Below the pieces are notes generated by a model. It had not been told where the DNA came from. It was given only the letters and a program-made list of their open reading frames with translations, and made no database searches. Shown here in pieces: positions 4,815 through 31,929 of a stretch of DNA of 64,000 bases (its first letter is position 1; every line of letters begins with the position of its first letter). The stretch comes from Ferrimonas kyonanensis DSM 18153 (lineage in GTDB: Bacteria; Pseudomonadota; Gammaproteobacteria; Enterobacterales; Shewanellaceae): the NCBI RefSeq assembly GCF_000425405.1, contig NZ_AUDJ01000024.1:1-64000 (forward strand). The letters are read 5' to 3'. A program made the translations under genes and the position numbers.

Positions 4815-5975
4815 TTACTCGGCCAATAAACAGAATTTATTGATGAAATTACTTAATAGCCTGGGGGTGGCGGTGAGATAGTCCATGTGAACAAACTCAT
4901 CCGGCTGGTGGGCTTGCTCGATGCTTCCCGGGCCAAGCACCAGCGTCTGGCAACCCAACTGGTTGATGTAGGGGGCCTCGGTGGCGTAGTTCACCGCCTC
5001 GGCGTCCTGGCCACTGAGTTGCTGGGCCAGATCCAGCAGGGTGTTGTCCCCCTGGTAGGCAAATGGCTCCGACCCAGGAAACAGCGGAGTAATGCTGATG
5101 CAATCCGGGTATCGGTTCATTACGGGGGCCAGCGCCTGCTCCAGCAAATGCTGCAGTTGCGACAGGTTCATGCCGGGCAGGGGGCGCATGTCGAGGTTGA
5201 GCTGGCAGCAGCCGCAGATGCGGTTGACTGCGTCACCCCCATGGATGTGGCCAAAGTTCAGGGTCGGGTAGGGCACACTGAAGCCTGGTTGATTGTAGCG
5301 GTCTGCCAGAGTGCGCTTCAGGGTCATCAATTCGCCAATCACCCCATGCATGACTTCGATGGCGTTGAGCCCCTTTGCGGGGTCCGACGAGTGGCCGCTG
5401 CGACCGCTGACCCGAATGCCATGAGCGGCGTGGCCTTTATGCATGTGCACCGGGCGCAGGCCGGTGGGCTCGCCAATCAAGGCGTAATCCGGTGCGATCT
5501 GTTTGCTGGCGGCGAAGGCTTTGGCACCGGCCATGGTGGTCTCTTCGTCGGCGGTGGCCAGGATGTACAGTGGCCGCTTCAGTGTCGACAGGTCGAATTG
5601 CAGCGCCGCTTCCAGGATCAGGGCGAAGAAGCCCTTCATGTCACAGGTGCCCAGGCCATACCAGCGCTGATCCTTTTCGGTAAGCTGAAACGGATCCTGA
5701 CTCCAGCGTCCCTCATCATAGGGAACGGTGTCGGTATGCCCGGCCAGCAACAGGCCGCCGGCACCCGCCGGGCCGATGCGGGCCAATAGGTTGGCCTTGT
5801 TCGTTTGGCCGGGCAGTGGCAGTACCTCACACTGAAATCCCAGATGGCTGAACCAACCGTACAGCAACTCAATGACCGGCAGGTTGCTCTGATCCCATTC
5901 CCCCTCCAGGCCGCTGATGGAGGGGGTGGCGATGAGTTGCTGGAAGCGCTGTTTCAGGTCCGGGAAATTCTTCAT
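4815..5975 (-). CDS. argE: Acetylornithine deacetylase
   Basis: 386-residue M20-family metallohydrolase that releases ornithine from N-acetylornithine, step five of arginine synthesis. Visible motifs are GHTDTVP (metal His and the Asp that positions it), GLGTCDMKG (bridging Asp) and ADEETTMAG (catalytic Glu and metal ligand). It is divergent from argCBFGH(A), the classical bipolar argE/argC arrangement. The start codon at 5975 has no obvious Shine-Dalgarno and abuts candidate ArgR boxes, so an ArgR dimer of trimers bound there would cover its initiation region. An ArgE is needed here even though ArgH carries an ArgA domain, which fits the linear (non-recycling) pathway. Confidence 0.96.
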   Translation of the reverse strand: MKNFPDLKQRFQQLIATPSISGLEGEWDQSNLPVIELLYGWFSHLGFQCEVLPLPGQTNKANLLARIGPAGAGGLLLAGHTDTVPYDEGRWSQDPFQLTEKDQRWYGLGTCDMKGFFALILEAALQFDLSTLKRPLYILATADEETTMAGAKAFAASKQIAPDYALIGEPTGLRPVHMHKGHAAHGIRVSGRSGHSSDPAKGLNAIEVMHGVIGELMTLKRTLADRYNQPGFSVPYPTLNFGHIHGGDAVNRICGCCQLNLDMRPLPGMNLSQLQHLLEQALAPVMNRYPDCISITPLFPGSEPFAYQGDNTLLDLAQQLSGQDAEAVNYATEAPYINQLGCQTLVLGPGSIEQAHQPDEFVHMDYLTATPRLLSNFINKFCLLAE

Positions 5976-6011
5976 AATTATTTATTCAAATTATTTGCAT
6001 AAGTATAAATT
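5973..6011. promoter_or_regulatory. Candidate tandem ArgR operator between argE and argC
   Basis: Two 18-bp ARG-box-like sequences, 5973-5990 and 5994-6011, are separated by 3 bp, so that their centres are 21 bp apart. This is the spacing used by ArgR hexamers. Against the core TGAATWWWWATTCA, box 1 matches about 12 of 14 positions and box 2 (TGCATAAGTATAAA) about 10. A possible argC -35 (TTGCAT, 5995-6000) lies inside box 2, with a weak -10 near 6017-6022. Binding would repress both argE and argC transcription. Confidence 0.7.
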
Positions 6012-6057
6012 AGTGGTAGTCTATCAGGGTGACAGTAAATAGACGACAACTACCGCT

Positions 6058-6108
6058 ATGAAATTTGCATTCTGGAAACATCAGCCCGCCCCACTACGAC
6101 GACGATAA
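6058..6108 (+). CDS. Putative arginine leader peptide MKFAFWKHQPAPLRRR
   Basis: A 16-codon frame lies in the long (about 150-nt) 5' leader of argC. It ends in three consecutive CGA codons, the rare Arg codon, then TAA. Those codons form the 5' arm of a hairpin (6097-6103 with 6114-6120). This is the layout of an amino-acid-sensing leader. Against it: no clear Shine-Dalgarno precedes the ATG, and no intrinsic terminator follows before argC. The frame is blocked upstream by TAG at 6040-6042, so it cannot be longer. The family is not recognised; treat it as a candidate only. Confidence 0.35.
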   Translation: MKFAFWKHQPAPLRRR

Positions 6109-6120
6109 AGTCGGTCGTCG
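6097..6120 (+). promoter_or_regulatory. Leader hairpin containing the Arg codons
   Basis: CGACGAC (6097-6103) pairs with GTCGTCG (6114-6120). The 3' arm can pair instead with GACGAC at 6042-6047, giving two mutually exclusive structures. A ribosome stalled on the CGA codons would melt the downstream hairpin. From 6121 to 6180 the RNA is C-rich and G-poor (about 21 C to 11 G), compatible with Rho loading. All of this is inference from sequence. Confidence 0.4.
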
Positions 6121-6180
6121 CCTCCGTTATGGCTGCCCCCACGTTTTCCTGTTGTTACGTTTGCCAATGGACTCTTCCTC

Positions 6181-7188
6181 ATGACCACTATAGCCATAAT
6201 TGGTGCATCCGGGTATGCCGGTGCCACGCTGGCCAAATTGATTGCCACCGATGACTCCCTGACCCTGGGCGGGTTGTACGTTTCCGAAGCCAGCGTCGAC
6301 GCCGGCACGCCGCTCAGCAGCTTGTATCCGGAGATGCTCGGGCTGGTGGACCAACCGCTGCAAGGGCTGAGTGCCGAGGCGTTGCAGCAACTGTGTCAGG
6401 ATCACCAGGGCGTGTGCCTGGCCACCGAGCATCAGGTCAGCGCGACTCTGGTCCCAACCCTGTTGGAGGCCGGACTCAGCGTGTTTGACCTGTCCGGCGG
6501 CCATCGCTTCAAGGATGCCGCCATCTACCCCGAGTACTACGGCTTCGAACATCCCCACCCAGAGCACCTGCTGCAGGCGGAATACGGCCTGGTGGACTGG
6601 TACCCGCACACCCTGAATAAGAGCAAGCTCATTGCCGTGCCCGGGTGTTACCCCACCGCCTCTCTGTTGGCGCTCAAGCCGTTGCAGCAAGCCGGTTTGC
6701 TGGCCGAGTCGGCGATGCCGGTGATCAATGCGGTCAGTGGGGTCAGTGGCGCTGGTCGCAAGGCACAACTCAACACCCATTTCTGCCAGGTCAGCCTGAC
6801 CCCCTACGGCGTTCTGGGGCATCGGCATCAGCCAGAGATCGAGACCTACCTGGGGCATCCGGTGGTGTTTACCCCACACCTCGGAAATTTTAAGCGCGGC
6901 ATCCTGGCGACCATCGTCTGCCAACTGAAAGCGGGAATTACCGATTCTGAGATTGCCGAGGCTTATGCGGTGTATCAAGGCAATGCCGGCGTCAAACTGC
7001 TACCACAGGGGAGCTGGCCTAAGGTGGATGACGTCGCCGGCAGTGACCGCTGCCTGCTGGCCTGGAAGTTCGATGCCGGCAAACAGACTCTGGTGGTGGT
7101 CAGTGCCATCGACAACCTGATGAAGGGGGCGGCCAGTCAGGCGCGCGATTGCATAAACATTCATTTTGGTCATGAGGTGTATTCATGA
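6181..7188 (+). CDS. argC: N-acetyl-gamma-glutamyl-phosphate reductase
   Basis: 335-residue NADPH-dependent reductase, third step of arginine synthesis. The N-terminus AIIGASGYAG is the dinucleotide-binding loop, and the catalytic Cys sits in VPGCYPTA. The conserved SGVSGAGRKA segment and the C-terminal IDNLMKGAASQA helix are present. Length is typical of type 1 ArgC. It is the first gene of argCBFGH(A); the start is confirmed by the N-terminal Rossmann motif, although the Shine-Dalgarno is weak. Expression is probably set by the ArgR boxes and possibly by the upstream leader. Its stop overlaps the argB start (ATGA). Confidence 0.97.
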   Translation: MTTIAIIGASGYAGATLAKLIATDDSLTLGGLYVSEASVDAGTPLSSLYPEMLGLVDQPLQGLSAEALQQLCQDHQGVCLATEHQVSATLVPTLLEAGLSVFDLSGGHRFKDAAIYPEYYGFEHPHPEHLLQAEYGLVDWYPHTLNKSKLIAVPGCYPTASLLALKPLQQAGLLAESAMPVINAVSGVSGAGRKAQLNTHFCQVSLTPYGVLGHRHQPEIETYLGHPVVFTPHLGNFKRGILATIVCQLKAGITDSEIAEAYAVYQGNAGVKLLPQGSWPKVDDVAGSDRCLLAWKFDAGKQTLVVVSAIDNLMKGAASQARDCINIHFGHEVYS

Positions 7189-7955
7189 AGACGATGGTCA
7201 TAAAAGTGGGCGGCGCGCTGCTGGAGTGCGACAAGGGCATGGTGCGCTTGTTCGACACCCTGACCCAGTTGCAGCACAAGGGCTGGCAACCGGTGCTGGT
7301 GCACGGTGGCGGCGTATTGGTGGAGCAGCAGTTGAGCGCCAACGGCATGACCACCACCAAGCATCAGGGGCTGCGGGTGACCCCCGAGGCGCAGATGCCC
7401 ATCGTCGCCGGCGCGCTGGCAGGCATTGCCAATACCAAGCTGGTGGCTGCCGCCAAGCAAGTGGGTTTGGTGCCTGTGGGGCTGACTCTGGCGGACGGCA
7501 ACCTGGTGCAGGCACAGGTGCAGGACCCCGAACTGGGCTGCGTCGGGCAGGTGACCGCCAACCAACCTCAACTGCTGCAGCAACTGTTAAGTCTGGGTAT
7601 GTTACCCATTATCTCTTCGGTGGCGGCCGACGCTCAGGGGCAGTTGCTGAACGTCAATGCCGACCAGGCGGCCACGGTCATCTGTCAGTTACTGAAGGCC
7701 CCGCTGACCCTGCTGTCAGACGTGTCCGGCGTGCTGGACGGCAAGGGGCAGTTGATTCCCGAGCTGACTCCGGAGCTGGCCCAAAGCCTGGTCAAAAGCG
7801 GGGTCATCGATGGCGGCATGAAGGTCAAAGTGGAGGCGGCTCAGGCGGCGGCCCGGGCCATCGATAATCGGGTTCTGGTGGCCAGTTGGCGCTACCCGGA
7901 ACAGCTGGCTGGTCTGATTGAGGGCCACAGCGTTGGCACTCAGGTTTACCCCTAA
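7185..7955 (+). CDS. argB: Acetylglutamate kinase
   Basis: 256-residue amino-acid kinase that phosphorylates N-acetylglutamate with ATP, second step of the pathway. Motifs: VIKVGGALL (phosphate-binding Lys and glycine loop), VLVHGGGVLVEQ, and NVNADQAA near the active site, followed by a DVSGVLDGKG loop. The short length and lack of an N-terminal extension indicate the E. coli-like, non-hexameric type that is usually not feedback-inhibited by arginine; that is family knowledge, not seen directly. It is translationally coupled to argC by a 4-bp overlap and separated from argF by 9 bp. Confidence 0.97.
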   Translation: MKTMVIKVGGALLECDKGMVRLFDTLTQLQHKGWQPVLVHGGGVLVEQQLSANGMTTTKHQGLRVTPEAQMPIVAGALAGIANTKLVAAAKQVGLVPVGLTLADGNLVQAQVQDPELGCVGQVTANQPQLLQQLLSLGMLPIISSVAADAQGQLLNVNADQAATVICQLLKAPLTLLSDVSGVLDGKGQLIPELTPELAQSLVKSGVIDGGMKVKVEAAQAAARAIDNRVLVASWRYPEQLAGLIEGHSVGTQVYP

Positions 7956-7964
7956 AGGAATTGA

Positions 7965-8870
7965 ATGATGCAGAACTTGTTGACGTTGAAAGACTGGACG
8001 CCGGAACAGATTCTGGCGGTGCTGGATAAAGCCAAAACCCTGAAGGCCGATTACGGCCCTTATCAGGACGCCCTCAAGGGGAAGAGCGTGGCCACCCTGT
8101 TTGAAAAGCCATCGCTGCGGACCCGGGTCAGTTTCGATGTGGGCATCAATAAGCTCGGTGGCCATGCGGTCTACCTGGATCAACAGAATGGCGCCCTGGG
8201 TAAACGCGAGTCGGTAAAAGACTTCGCCCAGAACCTGTCGCGCTGGTGTGATGCCATCGTGGCACGGGTGTTCGATCATGCCACCCTGGTGGAGCTGGCT
8301 GAGCATGCGACGGTGCCGGTGGTCAATTCGCTGTGCGATCTGTACCACCCGTGCCAGGCGATGGCCGACATGCTGACCATCATGGAACACAACCCCAATT
8401 GGCAGCAGTCCAAGCTGGCGTACGTCGGCGACGGCAACAACGTCACCCATTCGCTGATGATCATCGCCGCCAAGCTGGGCGTCGACATGGTGGTGGTGTG
8501 CCCTGCGGGCCACTTCCCCGATGGCCAGCAGGTACTGGAAGCGCAGGCGTTGGCGACTCAGTCGGGCGCCAGCCTGACCCTCAGCAGTGACGTCGCCGCC
8601 CTGGAAGGGGTGGACGTTATCTACGCCGATACCTGGATCTCCATGGGCGATGCCACGCCGATGGAAGAGATCAAAGCCAAGTTCGCCCCTTATCAGGTGA
8701 ATGCACAGATGATGGCCGCCAGCGGCGCCAGTCATTTCCTGCATTGCCAACCCGCCCACCGCGAGGTGGAAGTGACTTCAGAGGTGATGGACTCGGAGCA
8801 GTCGCTGGTCATGGACCAGGCTGAAAACCGGATGCACGCCCAAAACGCAATTCTACTGACTCTGATTTAA
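7965..8870 (+). CDS. argF: Ornithine carbamoyltransferase, unusual HCQP motif
   Basis: 301-residue short-type OTCase that makes citrulline from ornithine and carbamoyl phosphate. Carbamoyl-phosphate site motifs are SLRTR (the variant of STRT seen in short OTCases) and YHPCQ. The ornithine-closing SMG loop is present as WISMGDATP, which argues for ornithine rather than an acetylated or succinylated substrate. Odd: the otherwise near-invariant HCLP motif reads HCQP (Gln codon CAA at 8748-8750) and is followed by AHREVE rather than the usual AHRGVE. Two adjacent ATGs (7965, 7968) both fit the AAAGGA site. It sits mid-operon between argB and argG. Function is probably retained but altered kinetics or a sequence error are possible. 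Confidence 0.93.
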
Positions 8871-8881
8871 AGGACACCCCC

Positions 8882-10090
8882 ATGACAAAGATTAACAAAG
8901 TGGTACTGGCTTATTCCGGCGGCCTGGATACTTCCGCCATTATCCCTTACCTGAAAGAGCAGTACGATTGCGAAGTGGTGGCCTTTGTGGCCGATGTTGG
9001 CCAGGGCGCCGAGGAGTTGGTGGGCGTTGAGGAGAAAGCGATTGCTTCCGGTGCCTCCAGCTGCCACGTGGTGGATCTGAAGGAGGAGTTCGTCGGTCAC
9101 TACATCAACCCGATCCTGCAGACCGGCGCCCTGTATGAAGGCACCTATCTGTTGGGTACCGCCATGGCCCGTCCCATTATCGCCAAGGCCCAGGTAGAAC
9201 TGGCGCTGCAGGTGGGCGCCGACGCGGTGTCCCACGGCTGTACCGGCAAGGGCAACGATCAGGTGCGTTTCGAGTCCACTTATGCCGCCCTGGCGCCGCA
9301 GTTGAAGGTGATTGCCCCCTGGCGGGACTGGACCATGAAGTCGCGGACCGACCTGCTCAACTACCTGGCCAGCAAAAACATTCCGACCACCGCTTCGGCG
9401 GAAAAGATCTACAGCCGTGATGCCAACTGTTGGCACATCTCCCACGAAGGGGGGGAGCTGGAGGATCCAAACTGTGAGCCGTCCGAACAGGTATGGACCT
9501 GGAGCGTGTCGCCAGAGCAGGCGCCGGATGCGGCCGAGTACGTCACCCTGGGCTATGAGCACGGCGTGCTGACTCAGGTTAATGGCGAAGCCGTAACCCC
9601 GTTTAACGGCCTGAGCGTGCTCAACGAATTGGGGGCCAAGCATGGGGTCGGTCGCATCGACATCGTCGAGAACCGCCTGGTGGGCATGAAGTCCCGCGGC
9701 TGTTACGAAACCCCGGGTGGCACCATCGTCAATGCCGGCCTGCGTGGCCTGGAGACGCTGGTACTGGATAAGTCGGCGTTCAAGTTCCGGGAACAGATTG
9801 GGCTGGAGTTCTCCCACGTGCTGTATGACGGTCGCTGGTTTACTCCGGTGTCCAAGGCATTGCTGGCGGCGGCCGCCAGCCTGGCCGAGCCCCTGACCGG
9901 CGAGATCGTGGTTAAGCTGTACAAAGGTCAGGCGGTGGTGGTGAAGCGGACCAGCCCCAACAGCCTGTACTCGGAAGCGTTCTCCACCTTTGAAGAGGAC
10001 GAAGTCTACAACCAGAAGCACGCGGAAGGCTTCATTCGGTTGTTCTCATTGTCGAGCCGGATTGCGGCCCTGCATAAGGAGCAGAACTGA
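8882..10090 (+). CDS. argG: Argininosuccinate synthase
   Basis: 402-residue ATP pyrophosphatase-type enzyme that joins citrulline and aspartate. The N-terminus [14 protein letters not shown] is the PP-loop (SGGxD[ST]S). Downstream are [15 protein letters not shown] and the [18 protein letters not shown] block that contact substrates. Length is typical of the type 1 enzyme of Shewanella and other gammaproteobacteria. A Shine-Dalgarno AAAGGA precedes the ATG. The argH start is at 10092, one base after the argG stop, so the two are tightly coupled. Confidence 0.98.
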
Positions 10091-10091
10091 T

Positions 10092-11978
10092 ATGGCGTTA
10101 TGGGGTGGGCGGTTCAGCGGCGCTGCAGACAGTCGCTTTAAGCAGTTTAACGATTCTCTGCCGGTGGACTACCGTCTGCTGCAGCAGGACATCACCGGAT
10201 CCATCGCCTGGGCCGGTGCCCTGACCCAGGTGGGGGTGCTGGATCAGCTGGAGCACGGCCAATTGGTTCGTGCCCTGCATCAGCTGGCCGAGGAGGTGAC
10301 CGAAGAGCAGATCCTGGCGTCCGGCGCCGAGGACATCCACAGCTTTGTGGAGCAACAACTGATCGCCAAGGTCGGTGACCTGGGCAAGAAACTGCACACC
10401 GGCCGCTCCCGTAATGATCAGGTGGCCACGGATCTGAAACTCTGGTGTAAAGATCAGGGCCAGATTCTGGTGGAGGCGCTGGTGAAGGCGCAGCAGCAGT
10501 TGCTGATCCTGGCCGAACGCGAAGCCCAGACCGTGCTGCCTGGCTACACCCACCTGCAGCGGGCTCAGCCGATCACCTTTGGTCACTGGTGTCTGTGTTA
10601 TGTGGAGATGCTGGAGCGGGACCTGACCCGGCTTAAAGATGCCCTTAACCGGCTCGACACCTGCCCCCTGGGCAGTGGCGCACTGGCGGGAACCGCCTAC
10701 CCGGTGGACCGGCTTAAGCTGGCTCAGGAGCTGGGTTTTCGCGGAGCCGTCAGCAACAGCCTGGACGCGGTCTCCGATCGGGATCATGTGATCGAGCTGT
10801 GTGGGGTGGCCGCCACCTCGATGATGCACCTGTCGCGGCTGGCGGAAGACATGATCTTCTACAACAGCGGCGAAGCCGGTTTTATCGAGCTGGCGGACGC
10901 GGTCACGTCCGGGTCCTCGCTGATGCCGCAGAAGAAAAATCCCGATGCACTGGAATTGATTCGGGGCAAGACCGGCCGGGTCTACGGCTCGCTGATGACC
11001 ATCATGACCACCATGAAAGCGCTGCCGATGGCCTACAACAAGGACATGCAGGAGGACAAGGAGGGGTTGTTTGACGCCCTGGATACCTGGCTGATGTGCC
11101 TGGACATGGCGACGCTGGTGCTGGAAGGGGTGCAGGTCAACAGTCAGCGGACCCTGGCGGCGGCGCAGCAGGGCTACGCCAATGCGACCGAACTGGCGGA
11201 TTACCTGGTGGCCAAAGGGATTCCGTTCCGGGAAGCCCACCACATTGTCGGTGAGGTGGTGCTCGGCGCCATCGCCCAGGGCAAGCCGCTGGAGGACTTT
11301 ACCCTGCAGGAGTTGCAGGTGTATAGCTACCGCATCGAGTCGGACGTGTATCAGCACCTGACCATCGATGCTTGCCTGGCCAAGCGGGAAGCCTTGGGGG
11401 GCACCTCCATCAAGCAGGTTCAGCATGCGCTGTCACTGCAAAACGACTCGCAGATCGAATCGCCGGCCATCGAAGAGGCGCTGGGAGCCAGTCAGCAGCG
11501 ACTCAATGCCCACAAGGCCGAGATGCTGATGGTGCGCCCGGCCCGATTGTCGGACGTGGATGCCATTCACACCATCAATGGTCACTGGGCCCTCAAGGGC
11601 GAGACCCTGCCGCGCAGTCGCGACGATCTGCTGCGTGACATTCTCGATTTTGCGGTGGCGGAACAGGACGGCGAAGTCGTCGGCTGTGCCTCTCTGTACA
11701 TCTATGAGACCGGGCTGGCGGAGATGCGTTCCCTGGGGGTAGACCCCAACAACCATGGTCAGGGACAGGGTAAGGCGCTGGTGGATTACATGCTGCAGCG
11801 GGCGCGTGAGTTGGAACTGAAACGGGTGATTGTGCTGACCCGAGTACCACAGTTCTTTACCAAGGCGGGCTTCAATCACACCGATAAGGAGACCTTGCCG
11901 GAGAAGGTGATGAAGGATTGCGACCTGTGTCCGAGAAAGCATGCCTGTGACGAGATCGCCATGGAGTACTGCTTCTGA
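10092..11978 (+). CDS. argH(A): Bifunctional argininosuccinate lyase / N-acetylglutamate synthase
   Basis: 628-residue fusion. Residues 1 to about 460 are an argininosuccinate lyase ([10 protein letters not shown] start, HTGRSRNDQ, and the fumarase-superfamily signature [11 protein letters not shown]). From about residue 478 ([13 protein letters not shown]) a GNAT acetyltransferase begins, with acetyl-CoA loop [16 protein letters not shown] and a Cys-containing tail ([14 protein letters not shown]) typical of stand-alone ArgA GNAT domains. The fused domain lacks the amino-acid-kinase part of classical ArgA. This argH(A) fusion is known from Moritella, Vibrio and Alteromonadales; it catalyses the last and first steps of the pathway. 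The open frame reaches back into argG, but ATG 10092 is the family start. It is the last gene of the arg operon. Confidence 0.96.
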
Positions 11979-31535: not shown

Positions 31536-31915
<380 letters not shown>

Positions 31916-31929
31916 AACCTACATTAGAA

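Follow-up and report, generated by a model that had tools for sequence, protein, structure and literature searches.

A CGA-ending leader ORF upstream of argC in Ferrimonas and its relatives, a putative arginine attenuator

The trp operon is controlled by the TrpR repressor together with a leader that carries two Trp codons. The trp (trpL), his, leu, thr, phe and ilv leaders are short ORFs with clustered codons for the pathway product, placed between promoter and operon, and the ORF described here, located upstream of argC in Ferrimonas, has the same layout; like the trp leader, the argC leader can carry just two control codons beside a repressor. Unlike the classical leaders, it concerns arginine, its codons are nearly always CGA, and in Ferrimonas and a sister genus the control codons stand at the extreme end of the ORF; in the window (the whole 64,000-nt stretch of DNA analyzed here), no set of mutually exclusive hairpins is demonstrable, in contrast to classical attenuators. 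The fungal arg-2/CPA1 arginine attenuator peptide, a uORF peptide controlling arginine synthesis, is a eukaryotic arrest peptide that senses free arginine and is unrelated to the argC leader.

Leaders of the his, leu, thr, phe and ilv types in proteobacteria are named in PMC3223726 and PMC2659441 (papers are cited here for the portions of their text that were available). The earlier note on this DNA had offered SpeFL as a distant analogue; the arginine arm of the same leader (Salmonella orf34) proved the closer one. In orf34/SpeFL of speF-potE (Salmonella, E. coli), as is proposed for the argC leader, two consecutive Arg codons sense arginine, and leader translation influences Rho termination (PMC6386406). 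It differs from the argC leader in preceding a polyamine gene and in its conserved core, HIRRT..HIMM (DUF2618), and no sequence likeness was seen; the argC leader sits before argC, not speF, the HIRRT..HIMM core was not seen among argC leaders, and a Pfam search up to E 10 with five leaders of at least 20 aa found nothing (at 16 aa, the window peptide is too short for that scan). The cysS leader uORFC-8-2 of Rhodobacterales resembles the argC leader in its two tandem codons for one residue, short ORF, codon-containing stem and terminator (PMC8632094), and differs in its amino acid (cysteine), gene (an aminoacyl-tRNA synthetase) and host group (alphaproteobacteria). A leader peptide also precedes Pseudomonas aeruginosa carA, a gene common to arginine and pyrimidine synthesis; unlike the argC case, attenuation there is ascribed to pyrimidines and the gene is a different one (PMC4997734).

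According to the available text of PMC6245113, attenuation plays no part in the control of any E. coli arginine gene or operon. A Shewanella regulon study gives six attenuators (branched-chain, his, thr, trp, phe), with arginine absent from the text available (PMC3223726); argC is unnamed in the main text of a Shewanella RNA survey (PMC2659441), as is arginine in the main texts of PMC2965389 and PMC4833913, and in the available text of PMC1262725 arginine comes up only in connection with T-boxes and as undetected in Actinobacteria. No published argC leader of this kind was among the literature matches listed, and the suggestion in the earlier note that surveys include no arginine leader agrees with the available text of PMC3223726 and PMC6245113. 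Rfam gave no match at gathering score at the leader position of the window, and no leader family up to E 1 in eight loci, where the sole match was to SraC_RyeA (L068, 2545-2707, strand opposite argC, across the leader region; 30.2 bits against a gathering score of 37, E 0.019). Elsewhere the window holds a tRNA gene (4-76) and an RNase P RNA (class A, 31536-31919).

The arginine locus and its leader ORF

The window lies in a Ferrimonas genome, G000, whose argC is 98% identical to that of F. sediminum. The locus has the following features:

4815..5975, minus strand: argE, divergent (NCBIfam NF003474, acetylornithine deacetylase, 600 bits)
5973..5990, plus strand: candidate ARG box (ArgR operator) overlapping the argE start, 3 mismatches to WNTGAATWWWWATTCANW
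5995..6022, plus strand: putative promoter read from the sequence, TTGCAT (5995-6000), 16-nt spacer, TAGTCT (6017-6022)
6042..6047, plus strand: GACGAC, alternative partner of 6114-6119, paired in the predicted fold of 6036-6125
6058..6108, plus strand: leader peptide ORF, MKFAFWKHQPAPLRRR and stop, frame kept among relatives
6097..6105, plus strand: control codons CGA CGA CGA (6097-6099, 6100-6102, 6103-6105), showing the CGA bias of the Arg run
6097..6120, plus strand: hairpin with the control codons as its 5' arm (-10.5 kcal/mol, z -2.6)
6109..6180, plus strand: gap of 72 nt between leader stop and argC, without a clear intrinsic terminator, possible Rho entry region
6181..7188, plus strand: argC (TIGR01850, 336 bits)
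7185..7955, plus strand: argB (TIGR00761, 207 bits)
7965..8870, plus strand: argF (NF011380, ornithine carbamoyltransferase, 517 bits)
8882..10090, plus strand: argG (NF001770, 582 bits)
10092..11978, plus strand: argH(A), a fusion of argH with an N-acetyltransferase domain (NF008964, 1074 bits)

The gene order after the leader is argC-argB-argF-argG-argH(A), argC first, and the argCBFGH(A) genes presumably form a single transcript; residues 478-624 of argH(A) matched an N-acetyltransferase model at a score slightly below the model cut-off. The window (64 kb) was scanned for operators with WNTGAATWWWWATTCANW, which we take to be the ARG box consensus, and gave five matches of the quality of the site at the argE start (1.06 expected), two of which overlap each other at 5973..5990; two sites away from this region, at 7148 and 36182, match better (2 mismatches), and the region before argC has one weak candidate. 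A gene with an ArgR domain (PF01316) lies directly past the window end (G000:C14:65457-65663). The putative promoter was not picked up by a consensus promoter scan of the window; its TAGTCTATCA is identical throughout six aligned Ferrimonas, and transcription would be expected to start near 6029.

Translation confirmed the 16-codon frame ending in three CGA codons that had been described before argC. Frame 6058-6108 of the plus strand encodes MKFAFWKHQPAPLRRR, its final four codons are CGA CGA CGA TAA (stop, 6106-6108), and argC follows after 72 nt; no Shine-Dalgarno sequence was seen by eye upstream of the leader. CGA had been called rare, and eight ORFs taken from the window use it for 19 of their 185 Arg codons, so three in succession are unusual. 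CGACGACGATAA had one match in the 4.93-Mb genome, as did its reversed control pattern, and the short form CGACGATAR, with 55 matches in G000 versus 41 for its control, is unspecific. Rarity of the motif alone is thus no proof, because control patterns match about as often; the proof is conservation before argC.

Conservation of the leader, its frame and its CGA codons

A leader was scored as an ATG ORF of 8-45 codons with in-frame CGA-CGA within the last 250 nt before argC, a criterion drawn up after the pattern had already been noticed. We used 157 argC loci of the same order, a subset of the argC found, from overlapping sets of 60, 116 and 247 genomes. A leader was present in 121 of the 157 loci, a 77% that is not an order-wide frequency, since the set is weighted to g2 (the large sister genus of Ferrimonas, presumed to be Shewanella from its rank, size and species number) and f2, f12 and f25 g38 each consist of close relatives, and the species counted are not independent of one another. 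Leaders occurred in 8 of 18 families (Ferrimonas, 14/14; g2, 71/78; g5, 2/2; g4, 0/3; f2, 6/6; f6, 10/11; f10, 1/1; f12, 4/4; f15, 1/1; f16, 8/9; f25, g38 4/4 and g29 0/4), where the single loci of f10, f15 and f6 g90 (MRRYSFTI) carry little weight; the f6 exception is L212. The other 10 sampled families (f3, f8, f9, f11, f14, f18, f20, f21, f26 and f27; 20 loci) had no match.

The alignment among relatives that the earlier note had proposed as a check on conservation came out strongly in its favor (121/157, versus 1/157 on the reverse strand). Dinucleotide shuffles of the same loci gave 9/3140, other 250-nt windows from 57 of the loci gave 2/1492, and the 28 best of 108 argC-bearing genomes from other orders gave 0/28 loci; a chance ORF was rejected on these four controls. 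Among 11 named genomes, F. sediminum had the CGA-CGA ORF, which was absent before argC in Providencia, three Vibrio, Idiomarina, Psychrosphaera, three Ruminobacter and an uncultured proteobacterium. That a conserved arginine leader stands before argC we regard as highly likely.

All 14 Ferrimonas leaders close with three or four successive Arg codons (with one extra codon after the run in four), and their N-termini are highly diverse (MKFAFWKHQPAPLRRR, MKTQISTVQTPLLRRR, MKLTAFSTQSCLRRRR, MTQQHPLSLLRRR, MTMTCWTLPFPVIRRRS, MNQMLNMIFILSTSKLRRR, MVFLFCSIHERRR). Leaders of g2 mostly have 20, 21 or 24 codons and usually end in LRR (CTG CGA CGA TAG or TAA); five of the 78 g2 loci lack the element (L084, L104, L111, L025 and L133), and a further two lack an in-frame ATG. 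Two g2 variants were seen: L090 has CGACGATAA with the ATG frame shifted relative to its neighbors, and L124 has the element with GTG as start. Of 116 family genomes, 38 had the longer form CTGCGACGATARNCTTGTC, each as a single copy that lay about 70-110 nt upstream of argC, and the reversed control of this form had no match in the 116.

Reading frame was assessed in 103 loci of Ferrimonas, g2, g5 and f16, of which 97 had CGACGA within the last 200 nt. In 95 of these 97 leaders, the CGA frame could be followed back without a stop to an ATG 6-30 codons upstream (other two frames, 3 and 0); in the 26 representatives that remained after thinning to less than 60% identity ahead of the run, the counts were 25 for the CGA frame and 1 and 0 for the others. 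The stop followed the last CGA directly in 92/97 and one codon later in 5/97; where TAA was lost, an in-frame stop lay one codon on (TCC TGA, CCC TGA, TTC TGA, ATC TAA). The terminal Arg runs of the 97 leaders, which had been selected by CGACGA, comprise 221 codons, and 219 are CGA; when selection did not require CGA, the ORFs had 295 tandem Arg codons, 272 of them CGA. As far as these alignments tell, the conserved content of the leader peptide is the slow CGA run, the frame and the nearby stop, and the start of the peptide varies. Changes by codon position in g2 ORFs (third position, 837, versus 697 and 602) come from non-independent pairs and, like the uninformative gap lengths, were not counted as evidence.

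In a his-leader assay, every Arg-Arg pair with CGA, AGA or AGG caused strong derepression, and the tRNA that decodes CGU, CGC and CGA reads CGA poorly (PMC4046918). In speF, the response to arginine was no different with the frequent pair CGC-CGC than with rare codons (PMC6386406), so codon slowness is not needed there, which counts against a requirement for codon speed in that leader. In G000, tRNA-Arg(TCT) and tRNA-Arg(CCG) were located; two E. coli-like queries did not bring up tRNA-Arg(ACG), the expected CGA reader, and its absence may be an assembly gap.

RNA structure after the leader

In the window, the arms CGACGAC (6097-6103) and GTCGTCG (6114-6120) are complementary, and 3 of 200 shuffles folded as well as the 24-nt hairpin 6097-6120 (-10.5 kcal/mol); for the pairing between the CGA arm and downstream RNA, 2% of shuffles did as well (p 0.02). 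The hairpin reported for the CGA run is therefore present, and so is the alternative pairing with GACGAC at 6042-6047, seen in the predicted fold; the whole leader (6028-6185) is no better folded than shuffles (z 0.86). As the earlier note had it, no intrinsic terminator was found on the plus strand after the leader (the best hairpin from a separate finder was weak), and folds of 6110-6180 and 6097-6180 contained no clear switch at the argC start. The segment it had described as C-rich and G-poor is moderately enriched in C over G (33% against 22% in 6109-6180), an excess that 4.9% of equal windows on the plus strand and 21.6% on the minus strand of the 64 kb also reach.

In 43 diverged representatives we compared with shuffles how well the CGA arm pairs with the 36 nt after it, and p was below 0.05 in six (combined p, 0.0025): L001 (0.02), L003 (0.015), three from f16 and one of two from g5 (0.045). 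L006 (0.055) was near the threshold, and the second g5 representative had 0.10; in f16, p was 0.00-0.06 in five representatives and 0.18 in L020. Most g2 leaders were not above shuffles, and neither were seven Ferrimonas representatives outside the window group (L007, L008, L009 and L011-L014; 0.31-0.87), so the CGA hairpin was rejected as a general feature (6/43). The upstream GACGAC, in the form GACGAY, was seen by eye in 6/14 Ferrimonas, and on that count was likewise rejected as a general antiterminator. Judged by these pairings, the window shares its hairpin only with its close kin, one further family and some members of a third group.

Terminator-like structures, counted without a shuffle control, were seen in three other groups: in f16 a hairpin holds the CGA codons in its 5' arm and T-rich TCTTTTC or GCTTTTTTC comes after it (6/8 leaders), in g2 a GGGC/GCCC hairpin precedes a T run (26/73 leaders), and in f6 g32 a long hairpin (-25 to -32 kcal/mol) does so (6/6 leaders). 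In f16, therefore, the control codons would form the terminator itself, and a ribosome on them would cover the hairpin arm. The finder reported no terminator hairpin in 5/14 Ferrimonas (L003, L008-L011). Folds with a masked ribosome site in six type-A g2 leaders gave the terminator hairpin a value of 0.98-0.99 with a stalled ribosome versus 0.57-0.93 without in five, and a low value throughout in the sixth (L065); they revealed no antiterminator in any of the six.

Several further observations were made at these loci. In L168-L173 (f6 g32) the leader ORFs have 36-42 codons with CGA-CGA internal, and a near-invariant block, CTCCCCTGGCTRGCTAC, ends 15-18 nt upstream of the CGA pair; the block may be an RNA element, because its third codon positions are kept too. 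The leaderless g2 loci L084 and L104 retain the GGGC/GCCC terminator-like hairpin, with a loop that approximates the reverse complement of that in leader-bearing relatives. A conserved TATGCTRACAY, possibly a second promoter, lies between the leader position and argC in g2 loci including L015, L022, L082 and the leaderless L025 and L133. Two Ruminobacter and one uncultured proteobacterium (L032-L034; L149 is probably the same genome as L034) have, ahead of argC, a 28-codon ORF in which two Arg codons, AGG CGG, stand in tandem (..SSRRSLYGASLLQ); it may be a separate arginine leader and is absent from another Ruminobacter (L041).

Proposed mechanism, alternatives and significance

Our main reading, to which we give a probability of about 0.74, is that the leader would act as an arginine-sensing, ribosome-mediated attenuator beside ArgR; translation of the leader, stalling of the ribosome and the response to arginine are what we infer from the conserved arrangement. 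ArgR would act at the promoter via ARG boxes. When charged arginine tRNA is low, the ribosome would wait on the CGA codons, masking them (in the window's kin, the 5' hairpin arm) and keeping the following RNA from folding or from Rho, and RNA polymerase would proceed into argC. When arginine is ample, the ribosome would finish and depart, the hairpin or terminator would form or Rho would gain free RNA, and transcription would stop before argC. The leader would add a sensor of charging level to ArgR control, as in the trp operon. In the window, Rho would be the likeliest termination agent by exclusion, because no intrinsic terminator is visible.

What the computation supports is the existence of the leader, the frame and the CGA usage within it, its recurrence ahead of argC in many species and, for some relatives, hairpins that resemble terminators. 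Two hallmarks of an attenuator are present: a conserved short ORF before the structural genes (downstream of a putative promoter) and a cluster of codons for the end product.

The earlier note had proposed a leader sensing arginine or ornithine. Conservation upholds the arginine-codon leader; ornithine is unlikely, with no common residue seen by eye before the Arg run. The same lack bears on a SpeFL-like arrest peptide that would bind free arginine or ornithine in the ribosome tunnel, an idea suggested by a short peptide preceding arginine/ornithine pathway genes and by MKFA, common to the window leader and to SpeFL, which we take to contain that stretch. MKFA is found in only 2 of the 14 Ferrimonas leaders, however, and the likeness is probably coincidence; the five longer leaders have no Pfam match, and the codon is kept, beyond the residue (CGA 272/295). 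Nascent-peptide arrest was rejected as the main reading on the missing common residue and Pfam match, and we hold it highly improbable. A DNA or RNA element in CGACGA (a binding or pairing site), with the frame incidental, would explain why the exact nucleotides are conserved and why certain lineages have a downstream arm with which the CGA codons pair; the ATG frame open in 95/97 leaders versus 3 and 0 for the other frames, and the compensation of TAA loss by an in-frame stop one codon later, leave such an element scarcely any probability.

CGA pairs are slow in the his-leader assay (PMC4046918), and the run might be a general slow-translation or peptidyl-tRNA drop-off device that senses no arginine; this is very unlikely given that the longer form CTGCGACGATARNCTTGTC was found before argC only, once per genome in 38 genomes. 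Control could also be post-transcriptional, the speed of passage over the Arg codons selecting mRNA folds that alter argC translation or mRNA decay: Salmonella speF orf34, with two Arg codons, acts partly via RNase G and translation (PMC6386406), and the window is without a clear intrinsic terminator. We think this unlikely, as the leader is followed in three other groups by hairpins that resemble terminators and have T-rich sequence, and the window folds (6110-6180, 6097-6180) offer no clear switch at the argC start.

Returning to the attenuator reading, the argC leader is a new instance of the known leader-peptide attenuator type, and its RNA device in Ferrimonas is putative. We put at even odds the wider proposal that an unrecognized attenuator reading the speed of CGA decoding governs arginine operons across much of the Ferrimonas/Shewanella order, with the peptide kept and the RNA part repeatedly rebuilt (codons as a terminator arm, separate intrinsic terminators, or Rho). 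An arginine leader would be a type of control reported absent for the arginine genes of E. coli in the available text of PMC6245113. If true, a conserved arginine leader in E. coli-related families would mean that ArgR is not the sole control there, and the argC leaders would be a natural test for the reason behind the CGA choice. The reading predicts a small ORF in many Shewanella genomes, and one peptide theme with varied termination devices would provide material for studying the evolution of attenuators.
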